Shown here: positions 2-53,723 of the stretch, piece by piece
Numbering within the stretch: position 1 is the stretch's first letter
Layout: every line of letters begins with the position of its first letter
IMG/VR virus record: IMGVR_UViG_3300043399_000587
Span: 1 to 64,000 of that record
Reading direction: 5' to 3' (one strand)
From: a virus
Length of the DNA: 64,000 nt
The notes under the pieces: model-generated
What the model was told of the DNA's origin: nothing
Database searches by the model: none
What the model saw: only the letters and a program-made list of their open reading frames with translations
Made by a program: the position numbers and the translations under genes

Positions 2-886
2 GAAGCTGAAAAGAATCCTCATACAAGCGCATTAGGTAAAGCATTGTATCGTGACTTAAGCAAAGAGAAGAAGGCAAGCCCGCAACAAGTTCAACGCAAC
101 AAAGAGCGGTGGGCACAGCGCCAGGCAGATAAAGAGCAAGGTGTGGCGGAAGGTACTCCGACATCGCTGATGAGACAATACCGTTCAAATGAAAATAATA
201 ATAATCATTCAGAAAATATAGTGCTATTGGCAAAACATTTTGGTACACCAGGAGAACTGTCAGTCGCTCGACGGGCACTAAAATACAGAGATGAGAAGGG
301 TGGATTTGATTATAGTGATCCTAAAGCTAAAAAGTACACAGATTTTCAACTAATGATTCATGAAAAATATTTCCCTCTTCTTAGATTAAAGCAAGGTGTG
401 GCGGAAGGCTCCCTTAACGAGATTAGTCAAGACACTGCTATGTCATACATAAGCAAACGTAAGAACACTGATGTATCTGGCAAAACCCCACAACAGATAG
501 GAAAAATGATCAAGGGTCTCAAAGGTGCCGTAGCAAGAGCGTACGGTGAAAAGCCAACAAGCCCTGCTAAAAACAAAGAGCAAGGTGTGGCGGAAGGATA
601 CCATAACAATATAATGCATGCCTGGAACTCTGGAATGAGTGATGATGAATTAGTAAGAAAATTCGGGCAAGGTGCATTTAATCAATTAAAACGAAAATAC
701 GGTGCCGGTGCCATTCCAGTTCCTGATTTAGTAGGGTATAAGCCAAAAGAACCAGAAGATAAAAAAGTGAGATTGCATAGAGGTTTGGAAGGGCCCGGAA
801 AGGTACTTAAATCAATTATAAAACAGCAAGATGTGAAGGAGGGTCAAGAAGACCTTGATGCCATCAAGAAATTAATGGGTAAATAA
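2..886 (+). CDS. Modular protein with QGVAEG repeats (5' end outside the window)
   Basis: The frame is open to the left edge, so the N-terminus is missing. A TTG at 44 is in frame but there is no reason to start there. The visible protein is a chain of unrelated, basic, hydrophilic segments separated by near-identical linkers (KEQGVAEG, LKQGVAEG, KEQGVAEG, then a degenerate QDVKEG near the C-terminus). The same linker occurs in the 979-residue protein at 47963-50902, with the DNA conserved as well as the protein. V-A-E followed by G fits the (L/I)-x-E cleavage preference of T4-type prohead proteases, so I infer a precursor of internal head proteins. The segments themselves are not recognised. 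A perfect palindrome follows the stop codon. Confidence 0.75.
   Translation, partial: EAEKNPHTSALGKALYRDLSKEKKASPQQVQRNKERWAQRQADKEQGVAEGTPTSLMRQYRSNENNNNHSENIVLLAKHFGTPGELSVARRALKYRDEKGGFDYSDPKAKKYTDFQLMIHEKYFPLLRLKQGVAEGSLNEISQDTAMSYISKRKNTDVSGKTPQQIGKMIKGLKGAVARAYGEKPTSPAKNKEQGVAEGYHNNIMHAWNSGMSDDELVRKFGQGAFNQLKRKYGAGAIPVPDLVGYKPKEPEDKKVRLHRGLEGPGKVLKSIIKQQDVKEGQEDLDAIKKLMGK
131..153 (+). repeat. QGVAEG-encoding dispersed repeat, copy 1
   Basis: Contains the 17-mer GCAAGGTGTGGCGGAAG, read in frame as QGVAE. The same 17-mer is found at 391, 580 and 49141, and with one mismatch at 48823. This copy also shares the upstream AAAGA with the copies near 575 and 49136. Confidence 0.9.
388..409 (+). 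repeat. QGVAEG-encoding dispersed repeat, copy 2
   Basis: Exact copy of the 17-base core at 391-407, in the same reading phase (LKQGVAEG). It joins two segments of the left-edge gene that have no similarity to each other. Confidence 0.9.
575..598 (+). repeat. QGVAEG-encoding dispersed repeat, copy 3
   Basis: Exact copy of the core at 580-596, again read as KEQGVAEG. With copy 2 it brackets a module of about 60 residues. Confidence 0.9.
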
Positions 887-5939: not shown

Positions 5940-5986
5940 CCCTGCATGGCGCTAGGTAAGCTTTCCGAGAAGTAAGGAGCACAGTT

Positions 5987-6154
5987 ATGAAGACCAACTT
6001 GTTCAACTCCCGTCATCACGCCCGCGTGGGCCCCGGCGGCTGGTTCTGCACTTGCTGCGGTCCGGCTCCTAAGAATCGCAAGGTTGTTGTCCGGCAGCAC
6101 AAGCGTAGGATCACCCGTATTTTGGATAAGCTTGAGCATGATGTTCAGGCTTGA
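5987..6154 (+). CDS. Early orphan protein, 55 residues, basic with Cys motif
   Basis: ATG 5987 is preceded by TAAGGAG. The product has a GGWFCTCCGPAP segment followed by a strongly basic KNRKVVVRQHKRRITR stretch. A small metal site or nucleic-acid binding is possible but unproven. The gene is GC-rich relative to the genome. Its stop TGA is part of the TTGACA of promoter P2. It shares a transcript with the gene at 5745. Confidence 0.7.
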   Translation: MKTNLFNSRHHARVGPGGWFCTCCGPAPKNRKVVVRQHKRRITRILDKLEHDVQA

Positions 6155-6179
6155 CAATAAATGGGTTTGGGAATACAAT
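6151..6179 (+). promoter_or_regulatory. Early promoter P2
   Basis: TTGACA (6151-6156), 17-bp spacer beginning ATAAAT, TACAAT (6174-6179). A dyad CAATAC-TT-GTATTG spans 6176-6189, over the -10 and the expected start site. Confidence 0.85.
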
Positions 6180-46351: not shown

Positions 46352-46789
46352 ATGGCAAAATGGGCGCAAGGCATCTACACTCCCAAAAACCCTCAAAAAT
46401 ATATAGGGAATCATAATCCCAAATATAGATCGGGTTGGGAACTTACGTTTATGACGTTTTGTGATAGTCATAAAAATGTGTTGTATTGGGCCAGTGAAGC
46501 ATTAAGAATCCCCTACAAAAATCCCCTAACAGGAAAACAAACTATATATGTTCCTGATTTCTTCGTTGTTTATCAAAACAAGTACGGCAAGCAAATTGCT
46601 GAAGTCGTAGAAATAAAACCTAAAAAACAAAGTCTAATTGAAAGTAAAGTTTCTAACGCCAAAGATAGAGCGATTGTAGCTATTAATCATGCTAAGTGGG
46701 CTTCGGCTATGGCATATTGTAAAAGTCAAGGTTATACTTTTAGAGTAATTACAGAAGACGACCTTTTCTATAATGGACGCAACCGTTAA
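46352..46789 (+). CDS. gp4: Head completion protein gp4
   Basis: A 145-residue protein with YRSGWELTFMTFCDSHKN, LYWASEALRIPYKNP, VPDFFVVY and AEVVEIKPKKQ, matching T4 gp4 (also called gp50). The fold is nuclease-like (the D...ExK arrangement is visible). It completes heads after DNA packaging. Its stop codon overlaps the late box for gp16. Confidence 0.88.
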   Translation: MAKWAQGIYTPKNPQKYIGNHNPKYRSGWELTFMTFCDSHKNVLYWASEALRIPYKNPLTGKQTIYVPDFFVVYQNKYGKQIAEVVEIKPKKQSLIESKVSNAKDRAIVAINHAKWASAMAYCKSQGYTFRVITEDDLFYNGRNR

Positions 46790-47292: not shown

Positions 47293-47312
47293 TAAGATAA
47301 TTGAGGAATAAT

Positions 47313-47948
47313 ATGATCAAGCATAGTTTAAAACACTATATAACCGAAAGTGTAAAGCTTTACGATTATACTATCAAAATCGCCGGAGAAGTAGATAAAA
47401 ACTTCTGTGATTTGTTTTGTCATAATCTTAAAGAGAAATTTGATGCGGTTGAAATAAGTAAACCTGTAACTACACCTATACAAAAAGATCCATATGGATT
47501 TCCTGATTTGCGTAATCAATCTATAACTATAATCAAAGCAAATTTCAGATACCCTGCTACTGAACCAATGATTCAACAAATCGCACAATTGTTAGGTTAT
47601 AACGTAAATTTGGTTCGTGCTGTGCAAACTAATTACAACGACAGCATCAATAGCGAGGCAGAAGGTTATGCTAATGAAGGTAGCCACAGTCCTCTATTAA
47701 ATCATACTGAACTAGAAGAACAGCCAGGCGCTAAAGAAGCAAATAAAGCATACGGCGACTCATATCGCCAAAGCATCAAAGATCAAATGAAGGGTAATGA
47801 AATACAAATGCAATATGCAGGTAAGCAAACACCCAATGCATTTGATCCTTTCAAGGCTATTCCACAAGATCCAAAAGGTGGCAATAGCCCTATGAGTAAA
47901 ATTACAAGACCAGCCAAACCAAAAACTGGGGCTGCTTTTAACAAATAA
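47313..47948 (+). CDS. Probable internal head or structural protein
   Basis: A 211-residue protein beginning MIKHSLKHYITESVKLYDYT. The YITE|S site resembles the capsid-targeting peptide cut by T4 gp21. A compact alpha-beta domain follows (YTIKIAGEVDKNFCDLF), then a hydrophilic tail rich in Gly, Pro and Lys. It lies just before the 979-residue modular protein. ATG 47313 is better placed after GAGGA than a TTG at 47301. Confidence 0.7.
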   Translation: MIKHSLKHYITESVKLYDYTIKIAGEVDKNFCDLFCHNLKEKFDAVEISKPVTTPIQKDPYGFPDLRNQSITIIKANFRYPATEPMIQQIAQLLGYNVNLVRAVQTNYNDSINSEAEGYANEGSHSPLLNHTELEEQPGAKEANKAYGDSYRQSIKDQMKGNEIQMQYAGKQTPNAFDPFKAIPQDPKGGNSPMSKITRPAKPKTGAAFNK

Positions 47949-47962
47949 TAAGGAAATAAAAA

Positions 47963-50902
47963 ATGGATTTCAAATCAATGTTACAACAGTTGAGCCAGTT
48001 AAGTGAGGCTACTAAAGAAACTGAAAAAGGTCGCATACACAAAGCTGATCCAGGTGGGTACGGTCGTAAGTTTGACACTGATGAAGAAGGTGATGAAAAT
48101 AAAGACGACAAGAAAAAAGAACCAGCAGTAAAGCGTGGGCGCGGTCGTCCTAAAAAGGGTGCTGATAGCGAAACTGGTCAAGTTGCAAAATATGATAATG
48201 CAAAGGCATTGCAAAGTTTTATGGTTGGTAATTTACCTAAAGGTAAATTGCCGGGTAAGCCAGGTAAAAAACACACGTTAAAGGACTGGGTCGAACAAAT
48301 AGAAGCAGAGTATGTTGCTGAAGCAGCTCCTGGACAGCAATTAACAGTTAAGCCAATGCCAGGAGCTGCTCAACTAGTAGATCCTTCAACACAAAGAGTT
48401 ATGGCAACAGGTGATGCGGCAGCCGTTAAGAATATACAAGGTGCAGTAGCACAGGGTAAAGTTCAAATGCGAGGCCCCGGTCCACAAGAAATGGCTGAAG
48501 AAGGTGATTATTCTGCTAAAAAAGCAAGAGCAGGAAAAGATATCGGTAAGCCAGGTAAGCAATTCAGTAAGATCGCTAAAAGCGCAGGTGAACGTTATGG
48601 TTCAAAGGCAGCAGGCGAACGTGTTGCAGGCGCTGTTCTTAAAAATCTAAGAAAAGCGGATGAAGGCGTTTCAGAAGCCTCAAAGAAGATTCCGGCAAGC
48701 AACAAACCAGTTAAGCCAGAAGATTTATATGTTTCACTAAAAGATATTCCAGCCAAAAAGCCGCGTGGACATACCCAATATGATCCCGCTAAAGAGTTTC
48801 CTGGGGTAAAAGCATTTAAAAAGCAAGGTGTGGCTGAAGGCTATTCACTGAAGAAAACTAATGTTGAAAAAACATTTCATCCAGGTGACCCAGAGGATTA
48901 CGGCAGTGTTGATATGACACGAAAAGATACGGATTACGAAATTATCAACAACAAAACAGGTCAAGTAGTAGGTACTGCGAGTTGGACTACTAATGATTAT
49001 TTTGGTCCAGGCGCACTAAAGATTACTATGAAGAATGGTGCCACACGCTGGATAGATATTTGGGAGCGTGAAAAAGGCAACCCACAAAGTGCTTTCAATC
49101 GCTTTGTGAAAGACCCAAAAACAGCCAAAAAATATAAAGAGCAAGGTGTGGCGGAAGCATCAAATGGTTTATATCAAAAAGCCATTCGCAAGTATGCCCA
49201 ACAAGTAGCAAATGATTATCTAGGCGGCGGAGACGAACATCTTTATGGTGCCAACAAGTTTGATGCTGAAATGTTTGGTGTAAGCCGAGAACAAGCAAAT
49301 AAAGACTTTAAGACATTGTTTAACATAATTGTACGTGCTCAAGCAGTAAAACAACGACAAGGTATGAAAGAGTCAGACACGGCAGAAAAAAAGAAAAATC
49401 CATGGAATGAAGGATATTGGGCAGGACATAGACAGGAAGATAGAGATTGCCCATATCCACCTGAGTCATCTGCCGCAGAATTCTGGGAACTTGGTTATTA
49501 TCAAGGCAACAAAGACAGAAAAGATGAGATGACAGGTCGTGTGATAGAAGCTGATATTCCATCTGATCAAATGGACATGGGTGCAGGCCTAGGTGCTGGA
49601 CGTAGTTCTAAAACTTTCGAAAGTACAAAAGCAAAACCAGATTTCTTAGATTTAGATAAAGATAAGAATAGAAAAGAGTCTATGAAAGATGCTGCTGCTC
49701 ACGCAAAACAAGGAAAGAAAAAGAAAATGAATGAAAGTTCACATAGACATTCTGCTGCTAGACTTATGGGCAAATCACATGCACTAGCAAAAGAAGGATA
49801 TAATTGCCGTTATGAAGATATGGATGAGGCAAGAGAATATCATGAAGGTTTCAAAGAAGGTTTGGACGAATGCTATGGACAAGGTGTGTATGAAATGGCA
49901 CCTTCGACCCCACCCATGACTATGGGCGGAATGGCAAATCAAGCTATGCCTGCAATGGAAGATGACATGGAAGAAGGTAATGCATTTACTGCTGCACTTG
50001 CAAGAACACCACGTGGCGGTGAGTTCAGTGTAGGCGGTAGATCATTTACTGATAGATCAGGATATGATGCAAAATTAGATGAATTAGCATTTGAAAGTTT
50101 AGATAACCAATTGAATGCATTATTAAATGAAGATGCTGTAGCAGAAGGCATGACTGTTTCTATAAGTAAAGGTCAACAAGGAATGCCTGATAGTGTTACA
50201 GTGTCAGCACAAGATAATGAAGCAGATGCATTGTTAGGTTTAATTAAACAAGCTGGTTTGGGTTTGTTCGGGGACGACCAACCCAATGGATATGAAGCTT
50301 CAGACGGGGATCAAGTTACATCTCATGGAGACATAAAAGTTGTAGGTGATCATGATGGTATGATGTCTTTGATTAAGAAAGTATCAGGTGGATCACAAGG
50401 TGATAGTGAAGACTATGCTGATGAAGAAGGTCACGAAGGTCATGATCACGCAGAAGATGAAGTATGCGATGACTGTGGTTCCGCAGACTGCCAATGTGAT
50501 GAAAAGGTAGATGAGGTTGAATCTTACGATCAAGAAGAAGAACAAGTAGCTGAAAATAATCCACCGGACAGTGACGCAGCCGAAACTACTGCAGATGAAA
50601 ATGCTGAAGCAGAAGAAGATATGGCTCTTGCCGCTACCAATGAAGGTGGTGATGGAAGTGAAGCCAGTGAAGAGGGCGAAGAACAAGTAACTGAATGGGC
50701 AAATGATGCAGGGAAAAGAGCAGAAGACTTTGATGATGAATCATTTAACACTGATATAGATTTTATTACAAAGGTAATTTCTGGTGGTTTAAACAAGCCA
50801 AAATCAACTGGTCAAACGACAGTACCCGTGGTTGCTAGTCAACATGATAGAATGGTAACACACGAATCTATTGCTGATTGGAAAAAATTAGCAGGATTGT
50901 GA
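47963..50902 (+). CDS. Large modular protein with QGVAEG sites; candidate internal-head polyprotein
   Basis: A 979-residue hydrophilic protein. The N-terminus MDFKSMLQQLSQLSEATKE looks like a capsid-targeting peptide ending in LSE|A. A basic KRGRGRPKKG AT-hook-like motif follows. Candidate prohead-protease sites recur: YVAE|A, GVSE|A, QGVAE|G (about residue 294), QGVAE|A (about 397), DAVAE|G. A module at residues 479-520 resembles ribosome modulation factor (GYWAG, CPY, WELGYYQG). Then come acidic, Glu/Asp-rich parts and a Cys cluster (CDDCGSADCQC). Late promoter upstream region, terminator downstream. Processing is inferred, not shown. Confidence 0.8.
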   Translation: MDFKSMLQQLSQLSEATKETEKGRIHKADPGGYGRKFDTDEEGDENKDDKKKEPAVKRGRGRPKKGADSETGQVAKYDNAKALQSFMVGNLPKGKLPGKPGKKHTLKDWVEQIEAEYVAEAAPGQQLTVKPMPGAAQLVDPSTQRVMATGDAAAVKNIQGAVAQGKVQMRGPGPQEMAEEGDYSAKKARAGKDIGKPGKQFSKIAKSAGERYGSKAAGERVAGAVLKNLRKADEGVSEASKKIPASNKPVKPEDLYVSLKDIPAKKPRGHTQYDPAKEFPGVKAFKKQGVAEGYSLKKTNVEKTFHPGDPEDYGSVDMTRKDTDYEIINNKTGQVVGTASWTTNDYFGPGALKITMKNGATRWIDIWEREKGNPQSAFNRFVKDPKTAKKYKEQGVAEASNGLYQKAIRKYAQQVANDYLGGGDEHLYGANKFDAEMFGVSREQANKDFKTLFNIIVRAQAVKQRQGMKESDTAEKKKNPWNEGYWAGHRQEDRDCPYPPESSAAEFWELGYYQGNKDRKDEMTGRVIEADIPSDQMDMGAGLGAGRSSKTFESTKAKPDFLDLDKDKNRKESMKDAAAHAKQGKKKKMNESSHRHSAARLMGKSHALAKEGYNCRYEDMDEAREYHEGFKEGLDECYGQGVYEMAPSTPPMTMGGMANQAMPAMEDDMEEGNAFTAALARTPRGGEFSVGGRSFTDRSGYDAKLDELAFESLDNQLNALLNEDAVAEGMTVSISKGQQGMPDSVTVSAQDNEADALLGLIKQAGLGLFGDDQPNGYEASDGDQVTSHGDIKVVGDHDGMMSLIKKVSGGSQGDSEDYADEEGHEGHDHAEDEVCDDCGSADCQCDEKVDEVESYDQEEEQVAENNPPDSDAAETTADENAEAEEDMALAATNEGGDGSEASEEGEEQVTEWANDAGKRAEDFDDESFNTDIDFITKVISGGLNKPKSTGQTTVPVVASQHDRMVTHESIADWKKLAGL
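48821..48841 (+). repeat. QGVAEG-encoding dispersed repeat, copy 4 (one mismatch)
   Basis: GCAAGGTGTGGCTGAAG at 48823, one base different from the core, encoding KQGVAEG. Confidence 0.88.
49136..49158 (+). repeat. QGVAEG-encoding dispersed repeat, copy 5
   Basis: Exact 17-base core at 49141 with the same AAAGA lead as copies 1 and 3, encoding KEQGVAEA. It lies 48 kb from copies 1-3. Confidence 0.9.
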
Positions 50903-50999: not shown

Positions 51000-53723
51000 A
51001 TGGCGCAACAAAATATAGACTTCGGTACCTTTCCTGATGATCCAGATGCAGATGCGATACGAACGGCATTTCAGAAAGTACAACAAAACTTTACAGAAAT
51101 TTATAATGGTTTCGCCGGGGGATCCGTCGTATCTGTTAACAGGACTCCGGGCGCAGGCATAACGGTAAGTTCACCAACCGGTAACGTTATCATTACAGCA
51201 AATATAGCTTGTGTTCAAGTGCACACAAGTACGTTAAGTATTGGCCGTGATTCTAATGGATCACAAGATACATCTATTACTTCTAGCTCACAAACACTTT
51301 GGATAGATTTACCAGCTACAATTGCAAACGTCACAAATATTAATATAACCGGACAATTAGCCGCATCCGGTATTTCAGGGTACACCGGTGTATTAGGTAA
51401 TTTAACAGTTTCAGGTACTATTAATACAGGTAATCTAAGCGCCACAAGTAATATTAGTGGCGGTAGTGGAGTATTTGGTAATTTAACAATAACAGGTAAT
51501 GTAACATCATCTGGTAATCTTGTTGTAACAGGTGTTGCAAACTTAATCAACGCCAGCAACGTTTCATTAGGTGCTGTAGGTAACGTGCGTATTACTGGTG
51601 GTTCTGCCAATCAATTCTTAAAAACAAATGGTGCAGGTACTTTAGTTTGGGATGATCCAGGAAACTTTTCGGGATTTAGCGGATATAGTGGTTGGAGTGG
51701 TATATCGGGATTCACCGGCGTAAGTGGATTTAGTGGAACATCAGGAGTAAGTGGTTGGAGTGGTGCAAGTGGTAGGTCAGGATGGAGTGGCACTAGTGGT
51801 TGGAGTGGTACTTCAGGTATATCCGGATGGAGTGGTGTTACTGGTGTAAGTGGATTCAGCGGTACAACAGGTATATCAGGTACTACTGGTGTAAGTGGTT
51901 TTAGTGGCATAAGCGGATGGAGTGGTGTTACTGGTGTAAGTGGCTTTAGTGGCACAACTGGTGTTTCTGGAACTACCGGTGTAAGTGGCTTTAGTGGCAT
52001 AAGCGGATGGAGTGGTGTTACTGGTAGATCAGGATGGAGCGGTACTTCAGGATTCACCGGTGTAAGTGGATTTAGTGGCACTTCAGGATGGTCAGGTACC
52101 ACTGGTGTAAGTGGTTTAAGCGGCACATCGGGTATTAGTGGTTGGAGTGGTGTATCAGGTATCAGTGGAACTTCCGGTACCACAGGGGTGAGTGGATTTA
52201 GTGGTATATCAGGTACAAGTGGTATATCAGGTACATCTGGATTCACCGGGGTATCAGGTTGGAGCGGTATATCAGGTATATCAGGTACTACTGGAGTATC
52301 CGGAACTTCTGGCTGGAGCGGTATAAGTGGACAATCAGGCACATCAGGATGGTCAGGTGCTACAGGTATATCAGGATGGAGTGGTACAACTGGTATAAGT
52401 GGTACTACAGGTGTAAGTGGTAGATCAGGATGGAGTGGCTTTAGTGGCTTTAGTGGTATTAGCGGATTCAGTGGTATTAGCGGATTTAGTGGTATATCAG
52501 GAACAACAGGTATTAGTGGATTTAGTGGTACTAGTGGCCGTTCAGGATATTCAGGTCAGTCAGTATTACTTTCGGGCTCTGTTGCTAATTCAACCTTATT
52601 ACCAACAGGTACTCCGTCAGGTACGTTATATCTCGTATTAAATGCAGGTGGTGGATATAATGCAGGAGACGGAGCTATCTCAGATGGTGCAAATAACTGG
52701 ACTAACGTAGGACCTATTCAAGGGCCATCTGGATTTAGCGGAGCCTCAGGAAGTTCAGGTGTAAGCGGATGGTCGGGTACTAGTGGAACATCAGGTACTA
52801 CAGGCGTAAGTGGATTCAGTGGTACTTCAGGCACAACCGGTGTAAGTGGATTTAGTGGTAGATCAGGATTTAGCGGTTCAGGAGTAAGTGGTTGGAGTGG
52901 CTTTAGTGGTTGGAGTGGCAGTGGTATAAGTGGATTTAGTGGCACTTCAGGATGGTCAGGTACTACAGGCGTAAGTGGATTTAGTGGCACTTTAGGCACA
53001 ACCGGTGTAAGTGGATTTAGTGGTACTTCAGGTACTACTGGTGTAAGTGGCTTTAGTGGCACAACTGGTGTTTCTGGAACTACTGGTGTAAGTGGATTTA
53101 GTGGCACAACTGGTGTTTCTGGAACTACTGGTGTAAGTGGATTTAGTGGTTCAAGTGGTACTACAGGTGTAAGCGGATTTAGTGGTAGATCAGGATTTAG
53201 CGGTTCAGGAGTAAGTGGTTGGAGTGGCTTTAGTGGTTGGAGTGGCTGGTCTGGAACTAGTGGTGCTTCAGGAGCAAGCCCAACTAGTATAAGTAACGGT
53301 ACAAGTAATGTATCAGTCGCACTGAATAGTATTGTTACCGTTGGTATTAGTGGCATCGCTAATGTAACTTCATTTGGACCTAGTGGTTTAACGATTAACG
53401 AATATGTCATGTACTCTGTACAAACAGGTATATCAGCAGCAGGCACAACACAAGGCACAGCCACACCATTAGGAAACATAATGAATATTGTTAATACTGT
53501 ATCCTCAGGAGCCAATGGAGTTGTGTTGCCAGCAGCTTCAGCAGGTATGATACTATATATTACGAACTCTAGTGCCAACACATTAAATGTATTCCCTGCT
53601 AGCGGCGCAGCAATTAATTCTGGAGCAACTAATTCTGCCCTATCACAGGGTCCCGGCGCAACTCTACAATTTATAGCACCAACTACAACACAATGGTACT
53701 CAGTTGGTGCTACATATGCATAA
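51000..53723 (+). CDS. Tail fibre with long SGx repeats
   Basis: A 907-residue protein. The N-terminal domain (FPDDPDADAIRTAFQKVQQN) resembles virion-attachment domains of phage fibres. A beta region follows. From about residue 222 to 520, and again 576 to 760, the chain is almost pure SGx/TGx triplets (SGFSGTSGWSG), where every third residue is Gly as in collagen but Ser or Thr replaces Pro. The two tracts are separated by a short globular part. The C-terminal domain (about 150 residues) is a compact beta fold likely to trimerise or bind the host. Confidence 0.85.
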   Translation: MAQQNIDFGTFPDDPDADAIRTAFQKVQQNFTEIYNGFAGGSVVSVNRTPGAGITVSSPTGNVIITANIACVQVHTSTLSIGRDSNGSQDTSITSSSQTLWIDLPATIANVTNINITGQLAASGISGYTGVLGNLTVSGTINTGNLSATSNISGGSGVFGNLTITGNVTSSGNLVVTGVANLINASNVSLGAVGNVRITGGSANQFLKTNGAGTLVWDDPGNFSGFSGYSGWSGISGFTGVSGFSGTSGVSGWSGASGRSGWSGTSGWSGTSGISGWSGVTGVSGFSGTTGISGTTGVSGFSGISGWSGVTGVSGFSGTTGVSGTTGVSGFSGISGWSGVTGRSGWSGTSGFTGVSGFSGTSGWSGTTGVSGLSGTSGISGWSGVSGISGTSGTTGVSGFSGISGTSGISGTSGFTGVSGWSGISGISGTTGVSGTSGWSGISGQSGTSGWSGATGISGWSGTTGISGTTGVSGRSGWSGFSGFSGISGFSGISGFSGISGTTGISGFSGTSGRSGYSGQSVLLSGSVANSTLLPTGTPSGTLYLVLNAGGGYNAGDGAISDGANNWTNVGPIQGPSGFSGASGSSGVSGWSGTSGTSGTTGVSGFSGTSGTTGVSGFSGRSGFSGSGVSGWSGFSGWSGSGISGFSGTSGWSGTTGVSGFSGTLGTTGVSGFSGTSGTTGVSGFSGTTGVSGTTGVSGFSGTTGVSGTTGVSGFSGSSGTTGVSGFSGRSGFSGSGVSGWSGFSGWSGWSGTSGASGASPTSISNGTSNVSVALNSIVTVGISGIANVTSFGPSGLTINEYVMYSVQTGISAAGTTQGTATPLGNIMNIVNTVSSGANGVVLPAASAGMILYITNSSANTLNVFPASGAAINSGATNSALSQGPGATLQFIAPTTTQWYSVGATYA
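51664..52558 (+). repeat. SGx triplet-repeat tract 1
   Basis: Nine-base units coding for (SGx)n with many near-identical longer blocks, for example two almost identical copies around 51895-52020. Slippage or recombination is expected to change its length. Confidence 0.85.
52727..53278 (+). repeat. SGx triplet-repeat tract 2
   Basis: Second tract of the same kind; two copies of a block reading GRSGFSGSGVSGWSGFSG occur near 52855 and 53185. Confidence 0.85.

Follow-up and report, generated by a model that had tools for sequence, protein, structure and literature searches.

An in-frame cassette system built on an 18-nucleotide coding repeat in candidate T4-type head-cargo proteins of large uncultured phages

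Phage T4 packs the internal proteins (IPs) IPI-III and the Alt protein into the prohead core, where they are processed by gp21. The T4 IPs are diverse counter-defence proteins whose capsid-targeting sequence (CTS) is the sole part they have in common (PMC3012670); this targeting peptide is about 10 residues long (PMC9958956), and Alt is processed at both ends, at ITE-6 and LTE-619 (PMC5694885). Here we describe an open reading frame (ORF) of 979 amino acids (aa) in the first 64,000 nucleotides (nt) of IMG/VR virus record IMGVR_UViG_3300043399_000587, the stretch referred to below as the window. Like the T4 proteins, this ORF begins with a short N-terminal peptide ending in a predicted (L/I)xE cut before a small residue; packing into the prohead core and processing by a gp21-type protease are proposed here from sequence alone. 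In contrast to T4, where IPs and Alt are separate genes, it carries several unrelated modules in one reading frame, linked by an in-frame DNA joint across which cassettes have been exchanged. We consider it probable that this ORF belongs to a family of T4-type prohead-core/cargo proteins that are built from cassettes in large uncultured phages and processed in the prohead.

Other described systems share single aspects of this arrangement. An integron likewise has an array of exchangeable units bounded by a recurring DNA site, but its cassettes are entire genes, served by long attC sites and an integrase, and not in-frame protein modules as here. In T4-type genomes, Arbiol et al. reportedly described in 2010 mobile regulatory cassettes, the PeSLs, intergenic promoter-stem-loops that promote modular shuffling; the joint resembles them as a short repeated DNA associated with modular shuffling, and differs in being coding, in frame and inside polyprotein genes. 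In phiKZ and SPN3US, the prohead protease cuts ejected head proteins after Glu (AxE) at several sites (PMC10052503, PMC5694885); there P3 is Ala and propeptides are removed, without the cassette array or the DNA-level repeat seen here. Polyvalent proteins of phages and conjugative elements are described as multidomain and often virion-packed, with unrelated effector domains that include ADP-ribosyltransferases, and as processed by built-in peptidase domains, in passages that mention neither a junction DNA repeat nor prohead-protease joints (PMC5512222). Several unrelated effector domains in one polypeptide do occur in a relative of our ORF (locus L107, see below), whereas Pfam and NCBIfam searches of P0001 and seven repeat ORFs detected none of the polyvalent peptidase or hallmark domains. 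Each half of the system thus has a known relative (T4 IPs and Alt, T4-type shuffling cassettes, polyvalent proteins), while for the coding joint that links them we found no description in the literature, within a limited coverage of subscription papers.

The ORF starts with ATG and is open along its whole length, as the first-pass annotation had stated. Its homologs in loci L002, L003, L004, L005 and L125 share residues 1 to about 240 and 529-979, and by this comparison it is a conserved prohead-core-like carrier with a cassette block inserted between residues of about 240 and 529. Its features are as follows (an arrow marks a predicted cut):

47963..50902, + strand: ORF of 979 aa with ATG start, prohead-core-like protein with inserted cassette block
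47963..48007, + strand: capsid-targeting-like N-terminal peptide MDFKSMLQQLSQLSE, predicted cut E15↓A16, conserved in L002, L003 and L125
48311..48322, + strand: predicted cut site YVAE↓A, residues 117-120
48485..48499, + strand: degenerate joint CAAGAAATGGCTGAA (QEMAE↓E), at which the block that was recently exchanged with L125 has its left edge
48498..48841, + strand: 344-nt block EGDYSAKK...KKQGVAE, 95% identical to L125, with flanks at 68%
48665..48676, + strand: GVSE↓A site, residues 235-238
48824..48841, + strand: joint CAAGGTGTGGCTGAAGGC, QGVAE↓G, residues 288-293
48839..49156, + strand: cassette A, residues 293-398, also in L006 (residues 1060-1175) and L117
49142..49159, + strand: joint CAAGGTGTGGCGGAAGCA, QGVAE↓A, residues 394-399
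49157..49372, + strand: cassette B, residues 399-470, also in L006, L007 and L008, in a different order
49358..49375, + strand: decayed joint CAAGGTATGAAAGAGTCA, QGMKE↓S, homologous to the RGVAE↓G that ends module B in L006
49397..49549, + strand: cassette C, residues 479-529, weakly RMF-like, ending RVIE↓A (RVAE↓G in L006)
50135..50146, + strand: AVAE↓G site, residues 725-728, in the C-terminal core
50876..50899, + strand: C-terminal tail DWKKLAGL; gp22 scaffolds of relatives end IKRLAGL or DIRKLAGL

The first-pass annotation had read the whole protein as a string of internal proteins, with an LSE↓A start and repeated VAE↓(G/A) sites between unrelated modules. We find the start at residues 13-15 and VxE↓(G/A) sites at residues 120, 238, 292, 398, 529 and 728, and the modules are indeed unrelated and separated by VxE↓small joints. 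The string description suits the cassette block in the middle; the rest (about 1-240 and 529-979) is instead a conserved core-like protein. Nucleotide conservation of the joint, its genome-wide spread and the exchange of cassettes are new relative to that protein motif.

At the DNA level the joint is an 18-nt repeat, CAAGGTGTGGCGGAAGGC, which codes for QGVAE↓G and is conserved at synonymous positions. When loci found by protein homology, with the motif unused, were taken together with the phage's own record (L006, L008 and the record; L007 was left out as a copy of L008), 19 of the 20 GVAEG copies carried the exact 14-nt core GGTGTGGCGGAAGG, where codon usage predicts about 1%. A pattern scan of IMG/VR returned the joint in at least 119 stretches, with copy counts that are lower bounds. 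In 123 copies from ORFs with at least two copies, the free positions of the scan pattern were occupied by GGT (98%), GCG (95%) and GAA (93%), against background codon usages of 46%, 11% and 79%, and conservation stopped abruptly beyond the joint edges. All 156 exact cores in 127 loci lie in the GVAEG frame of an ORF, with none out of frame or elsewhere; when up to four mismatches are allowed, the copies divide among the three frames as 270/0/1, and the reverse strand has 0. Cassettes that have drifted to 54% third-position identity keep 93% within the joint. The core was present in 15 of 16 searched phage records (reversed control, 0), and no cultured phage gave a full match to a 30-nt joint query. 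By these sequence comparisons, the joint nucleotides are conserved beyond the amino-acid requirement. Separately, GTDB gave 26 joint matches, single-copy and mostly in GC-rich genomes, which we read as chance.

The same joints bound the exchange of cassettes. In the L006 polyprotein, modules A, B and C lie at residues 1060, 895 and 368, and L007 and L008 hold B and C. The slot that they occupy in the 979-aa ORF contains an unrelated cassette in L125, between KKQGVAE↓G and VAE↓ADIPSDQ, and is empty in L002 and L003. The nearly identical 344-nt block shared with L125 runs from the degenerate joint at 48485 to the joint at 48824, and over all ORFs 79.5% of the ends of blocks with at least 90% identity are no more than 25 nt away from a joint, where 22% would be expected. 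Splitting 96 ORFs at their joints yielded 304 segments, 112 of them internal (median 77 aa), and many of the resulting clusters recur with changed neighbours. A gene of the same record at 80080 (191 aa) represents the empty state of L014 and L066, both of which carry several hundred cassette residues in mid-gene. On this evidence, cassettes are exchanged joint-to-joint between genes and between phages, and the targeting N-terminus and the C-terminus stay with the carrier gene; an interchangeable in-frame system, with cassettes of about 50-260 aa, is almost certain.

Several features connect these ORFs with the phage head. In repeat ORFs with a closed 5' end, 42 of 63 have an N-terminal [LIVFM]xE with Glu at residue 6-16, compared with 23% of internal windows. 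P3 at these 42 sites is L in 24, I in 17 and M in 1, although five residues were allowed; P1' is G, S, A, N or T in 33, and the Glu stands at residue 8 or 9 in 30, a pattern that resembles the T4 rule. Homologs of gp21, gp22 and gp23 are found in relatives, gp21 in the repeat-bearing G008, G010, G013, G014, L029 and L059. Their capsid proteins have a predicted cut, LLE↓N, LAE↓S or LKE↓N, ahead of ATAGATSAGN or a variant, placed by alignment with gp23 and its cut site in T4. The start of the cargo ORF L123, MKIRDILE↓SATAGATSAGNIA, matches capsid protein HLAE↓SATAGATSAGNIA. In L029, L059 and L083 the next gene but one after gp23 is a repeat ORF, a single GIY-YIG-like gene separating the two. LAGL tails occur in the 979-aa ORF family and in gp22 scaffolds, and otherwise in just two further ORFs; the 979-aa ORF has the (K/R)LAGL tail of a gp22-type scaffold. 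The ORF follows tail-tube and head-closure genes and does not lie between protease and major capsid protein, as gp22 does, and family-profile searches gave no gp22 match for it. We regard these proteins as likely head cargo.

Two side observations belong to these loci. A cargo protein (L123, an ORF starting MKIRDILESATAGATSAGNIA; compare L136-L139) has the same 12 residues past its predicted cut as the predicted mature N-terminus of the major capsid protein. The intervening GIY-YIG-like gene lies at 3241-3987 in L029, 7870-8592 in L059 and 1956-2678 in L083.

Whether the joints are also cut was assessed from their residues and from those of the cassettes. Inside cassettes, [LI]xE↓small occurs 3 times. 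Shuffling predicts 21.5, and control segments matched for size have 31 (never fewer than 16 in 1000 draws), a depletion of about tenfold; no comparable depletion was seen for [LI]xE ahead of other residues, or for [LI]xD, xQ or xK ahead of small ones. We found 65 joints that differ from the repeat by 3-4 bases, where chance would give about 1. Of these, 94% retain Glu at P1 and 98% have V, L, I or M at P3; our neutral expectations, calculated with mismatch rates and the genetic code, are about 57% and 81%. Their Q, A and final G have drifted, the Q and the final G freely. The joint therefore looks selected twice, for its nucleotides when young and for P3 and P1 when old. Further cassette edges end in xE↓small, such as RVIE↓A in the 979-aa ORF and HLRE↓S at the resumption point in L014 and L066. 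Together with the T4-like starts of repeat ORFs, the match between L123 and the capsid protein, and the gp21, gp22 and gp23 of relatives, these signs lend indirect support to a head-protease role for the joints, and cutting there seems reasonably likely.

A number of observations weigh against this interpretation. P3 at the joints is Val, while 41 of the 42 N-terminal sites have L or I, and cassettes do not avoid VxE↓small (9 observed, 9.1 expected, several of them resembling decayed joints); the depletion and decay statistics count related sequences as independent. An N-terminal [LIVFM]xE is present in 26 of 129 ORFs (20%) of the phage's own record. The gp21 and gp23 families (PF03420, PF07068) were not found in that 125-kb record, a fragment, and relatives were examined for them instead; gp21 was detected in just 6 of roughly 30 records tested, and neither gp21 nor gp23 was detected in G012, the 342,865-base record of L076 with four joints, where either the head has diverged or a gap lies. 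No family is matched by most cassettes, and modules A-C are mostly without an assigned function. The role of the joints as seams is deduced from conservation, with no recombinase identified.

Some of these points would fit joints that are flexible linkers as well as seams, in one uncut polyvalent multidomain chain, perhaps packed in the head. Polyvalent proteins are a known phage theme, and Val at P3 and the undepleted VxE↓small sites are as such a chain would have them. In an AlphaFold model of the cassette block (mean pLDDT, the predicted local distance difference test, of 61, low confidence), residues 393-399, which form a joint, are of low confidence and linker-like. The model breaks there and at residues 463-485, which is consistent with separate domains; a fold search with it returned nothing below E 0.08 and no fold is claimed. 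A linker would not, however, require the Glu at P1 and the hydrophobic P3 that decayed joints retain, nor the xE↓small endings of the further cassette edges, and we consider an uncut chain unlikely.

Degradation is the opposite alternative, in which the protein is an ordinary scaffold-like core protein that the protease reduces to peptides, with the cassettes as disposable filler. T4 gp22, gp67 and gp68 are degraded to peptides (PMC9958956), and the 979-aa ORF would agree with this in its KKLAGL tail, in the acidity of its C-terminal region and in the several [LIV]xE sites that its core part contains. Yet cassettes A-C contain a single internal [LIV]xE (IWE↓R at 368) against many in the core, cassettes avoid [LI]xE↓small, and cassettes elsewhere include kinases and acetyltransferases, which makes this explanation improbable.

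Our preferred reading, release of exchangeable cassettes in the head, would proceed as follows. Joints would act as DNA recombination seams through short-homology recombination, a process that is documented in T4 (PMC9391042) and comes easily to T4-type phages, with every exchange kept in frame. The N-terminal peptide, together with the scaffold-like KKLAGL tail in the 979-aa ORF, would bring the precursor into the prohead core, where a gp21-type protease would cut after Glu at (L/I)xE sites and VxE joints during maturation and so free the cassettes. Like T4 Alt and IPI-III, these would then accompany the DNA into the host and act early, in host takeover or counter-defence.

Cassettes might instead be moved by a site-specific recombinase or a homing-type endonuclease, with GVAEG as a tolerated by-product. 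The conservation of joint nucleotides beyond the amino acids, the sharp bounding of exchange by joints, the many GIY-YIG-like genes in the record and the one between gp23 and the repeat ORF in three loci would all suit such a mover. The joint, though, has no evident dyad symmetry, lies in a single frame and orientation inside ORFs, and in its decayed copies shows protein-level selection on P3 and P1; no common recombinase was found, although none was specifically searched for. We judge this origin distinctly improbable. Contigs, the phage's own record included, tend to end close to joints (13 of 28, where 3.8 would be expected), which would fit populations with alternative cassettes; the same excess could point to assembly chimeras, in which assemblers joined unrelated genes at a short repeat, an explanation that we considered and rejected as very improbable given a shared stretch of about 18-21 nt, below usual assembly overlaps, frames that stay open across every joint, decayed joints that persist, and identical cassette orders that recur in independent samples.

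That one 18-nt sequence serves both as an in-frame swap seam and as a head-protease cut peptide, on a platform common to many large phages, is in our estimate about evenly balanced between true and false. If true, protease site and recombination seam would be coded by the same nucleotides, and a captured cassette would at once be translated in frame, taken into the head by the targeting peptide of its host gene and released. This would amount to a plug-in system for effectors delivered by the virion, and would reveal how phages assemble and exchange sets of proteins that travel with their DNA. The joint would then be a sequence tag for finding hundreds of host-takeover or counter-defence modules in metagenomes, and with the cassette edges known, each module can be cloned and tested singly.

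Some cassettes do have recognizable families. The L107 polyprotein combines a T7 gp0.7-like kinase (PHROG, E 1.9e-21) with GNAT acetyltransferases. In the window's own record, a single cluster encodes an ADP-ribosyltransferase (77709; PF03496, E 1e-13) alongside CTS-led kinases of the gp0.7-like type (76134 and 78345). By analogy with T4 Alt, kinase, ADP-ribosyltransferase and GNAT cargo would be host-takeover functions. The cluster of short-CTS genes (69852-80655, L009), which also includes a nucleotidyltransferase/DUF5661 protein, a DUF5872-like basic module and an HExxH protein, has the look of an arsenal delivered by the virion. The DUF5872-like module DACYYKVKSRYKVWPSAYASGALVKCRKKG occurs in L006 (residues 200-237), in other cassettes and in MW202722.1, Synechococcus S-RIP2 and Pelagibacter HTVC168P; since it is thus also present in marine podoviruses, cassette content crosses phage types.

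For the 979-aa ORF itself, Pfam, PHROGs and NCBIfam gave a weak match to a PHROG of unknown function and a sub-threshold RMF-like stretch, and nothing else. No homolog was found in cultured phages; there was one 55-residue match, in a 595-kb metagenomic phage. Residues 480-519 of module C score 17.6-20.7 bits against Pfam RMF, below the cut-off of 27.9, and the module has no sequence match in the PDB. The RMF-like module, GYWxGHRxEDRDCPYPP...WELGYxxGNKDR, is seen at 49397-49549 and in L006 at 5974-6162; a head-delivered ribosome factor, to which this sub-threshold likeness would point, would be of interest.

The record (G000, 124,789 bases) is a fragment of a T4-type phage whose tail sheath is closest to those of Sinorhizobium phage Phosso, Agrobacterium phage Atu_ph07 and Pseudomonas phage PA5oct. 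It holds a second cassette ORF, whose modules gave no family match, and upstream of the 979-aa ORF the neighbour with a YITE↓S start that had been pointed out before:

2..886, + strand: second cassette ORF of the phage, truncated where the record begins; three exact joints, at 140, 395 and 584
47301..47948, + strand: neighbour whose start, KHYITE↓S, is CTS-like; it matches a virion structural PHROG weakly and is syntenic in homologous loci

The gp16 that the first-pass annotation had also placed beside the ORF could not be confirmed, as 46801-47283 matches just a PHROG of unknown function; the gene preceding it, at 46352, encodes a head-closure/TnsA-like protein. GIY-YIG-like genes are also found in the record at 2064, 22095 and 26462. 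Just downstream of the 979-aa ORF, 51000-53723 encodes a 907-aa protein that consists largely of GxSGxSG/TTGVSGFSG repeats and is collagen-like or fibre-like.

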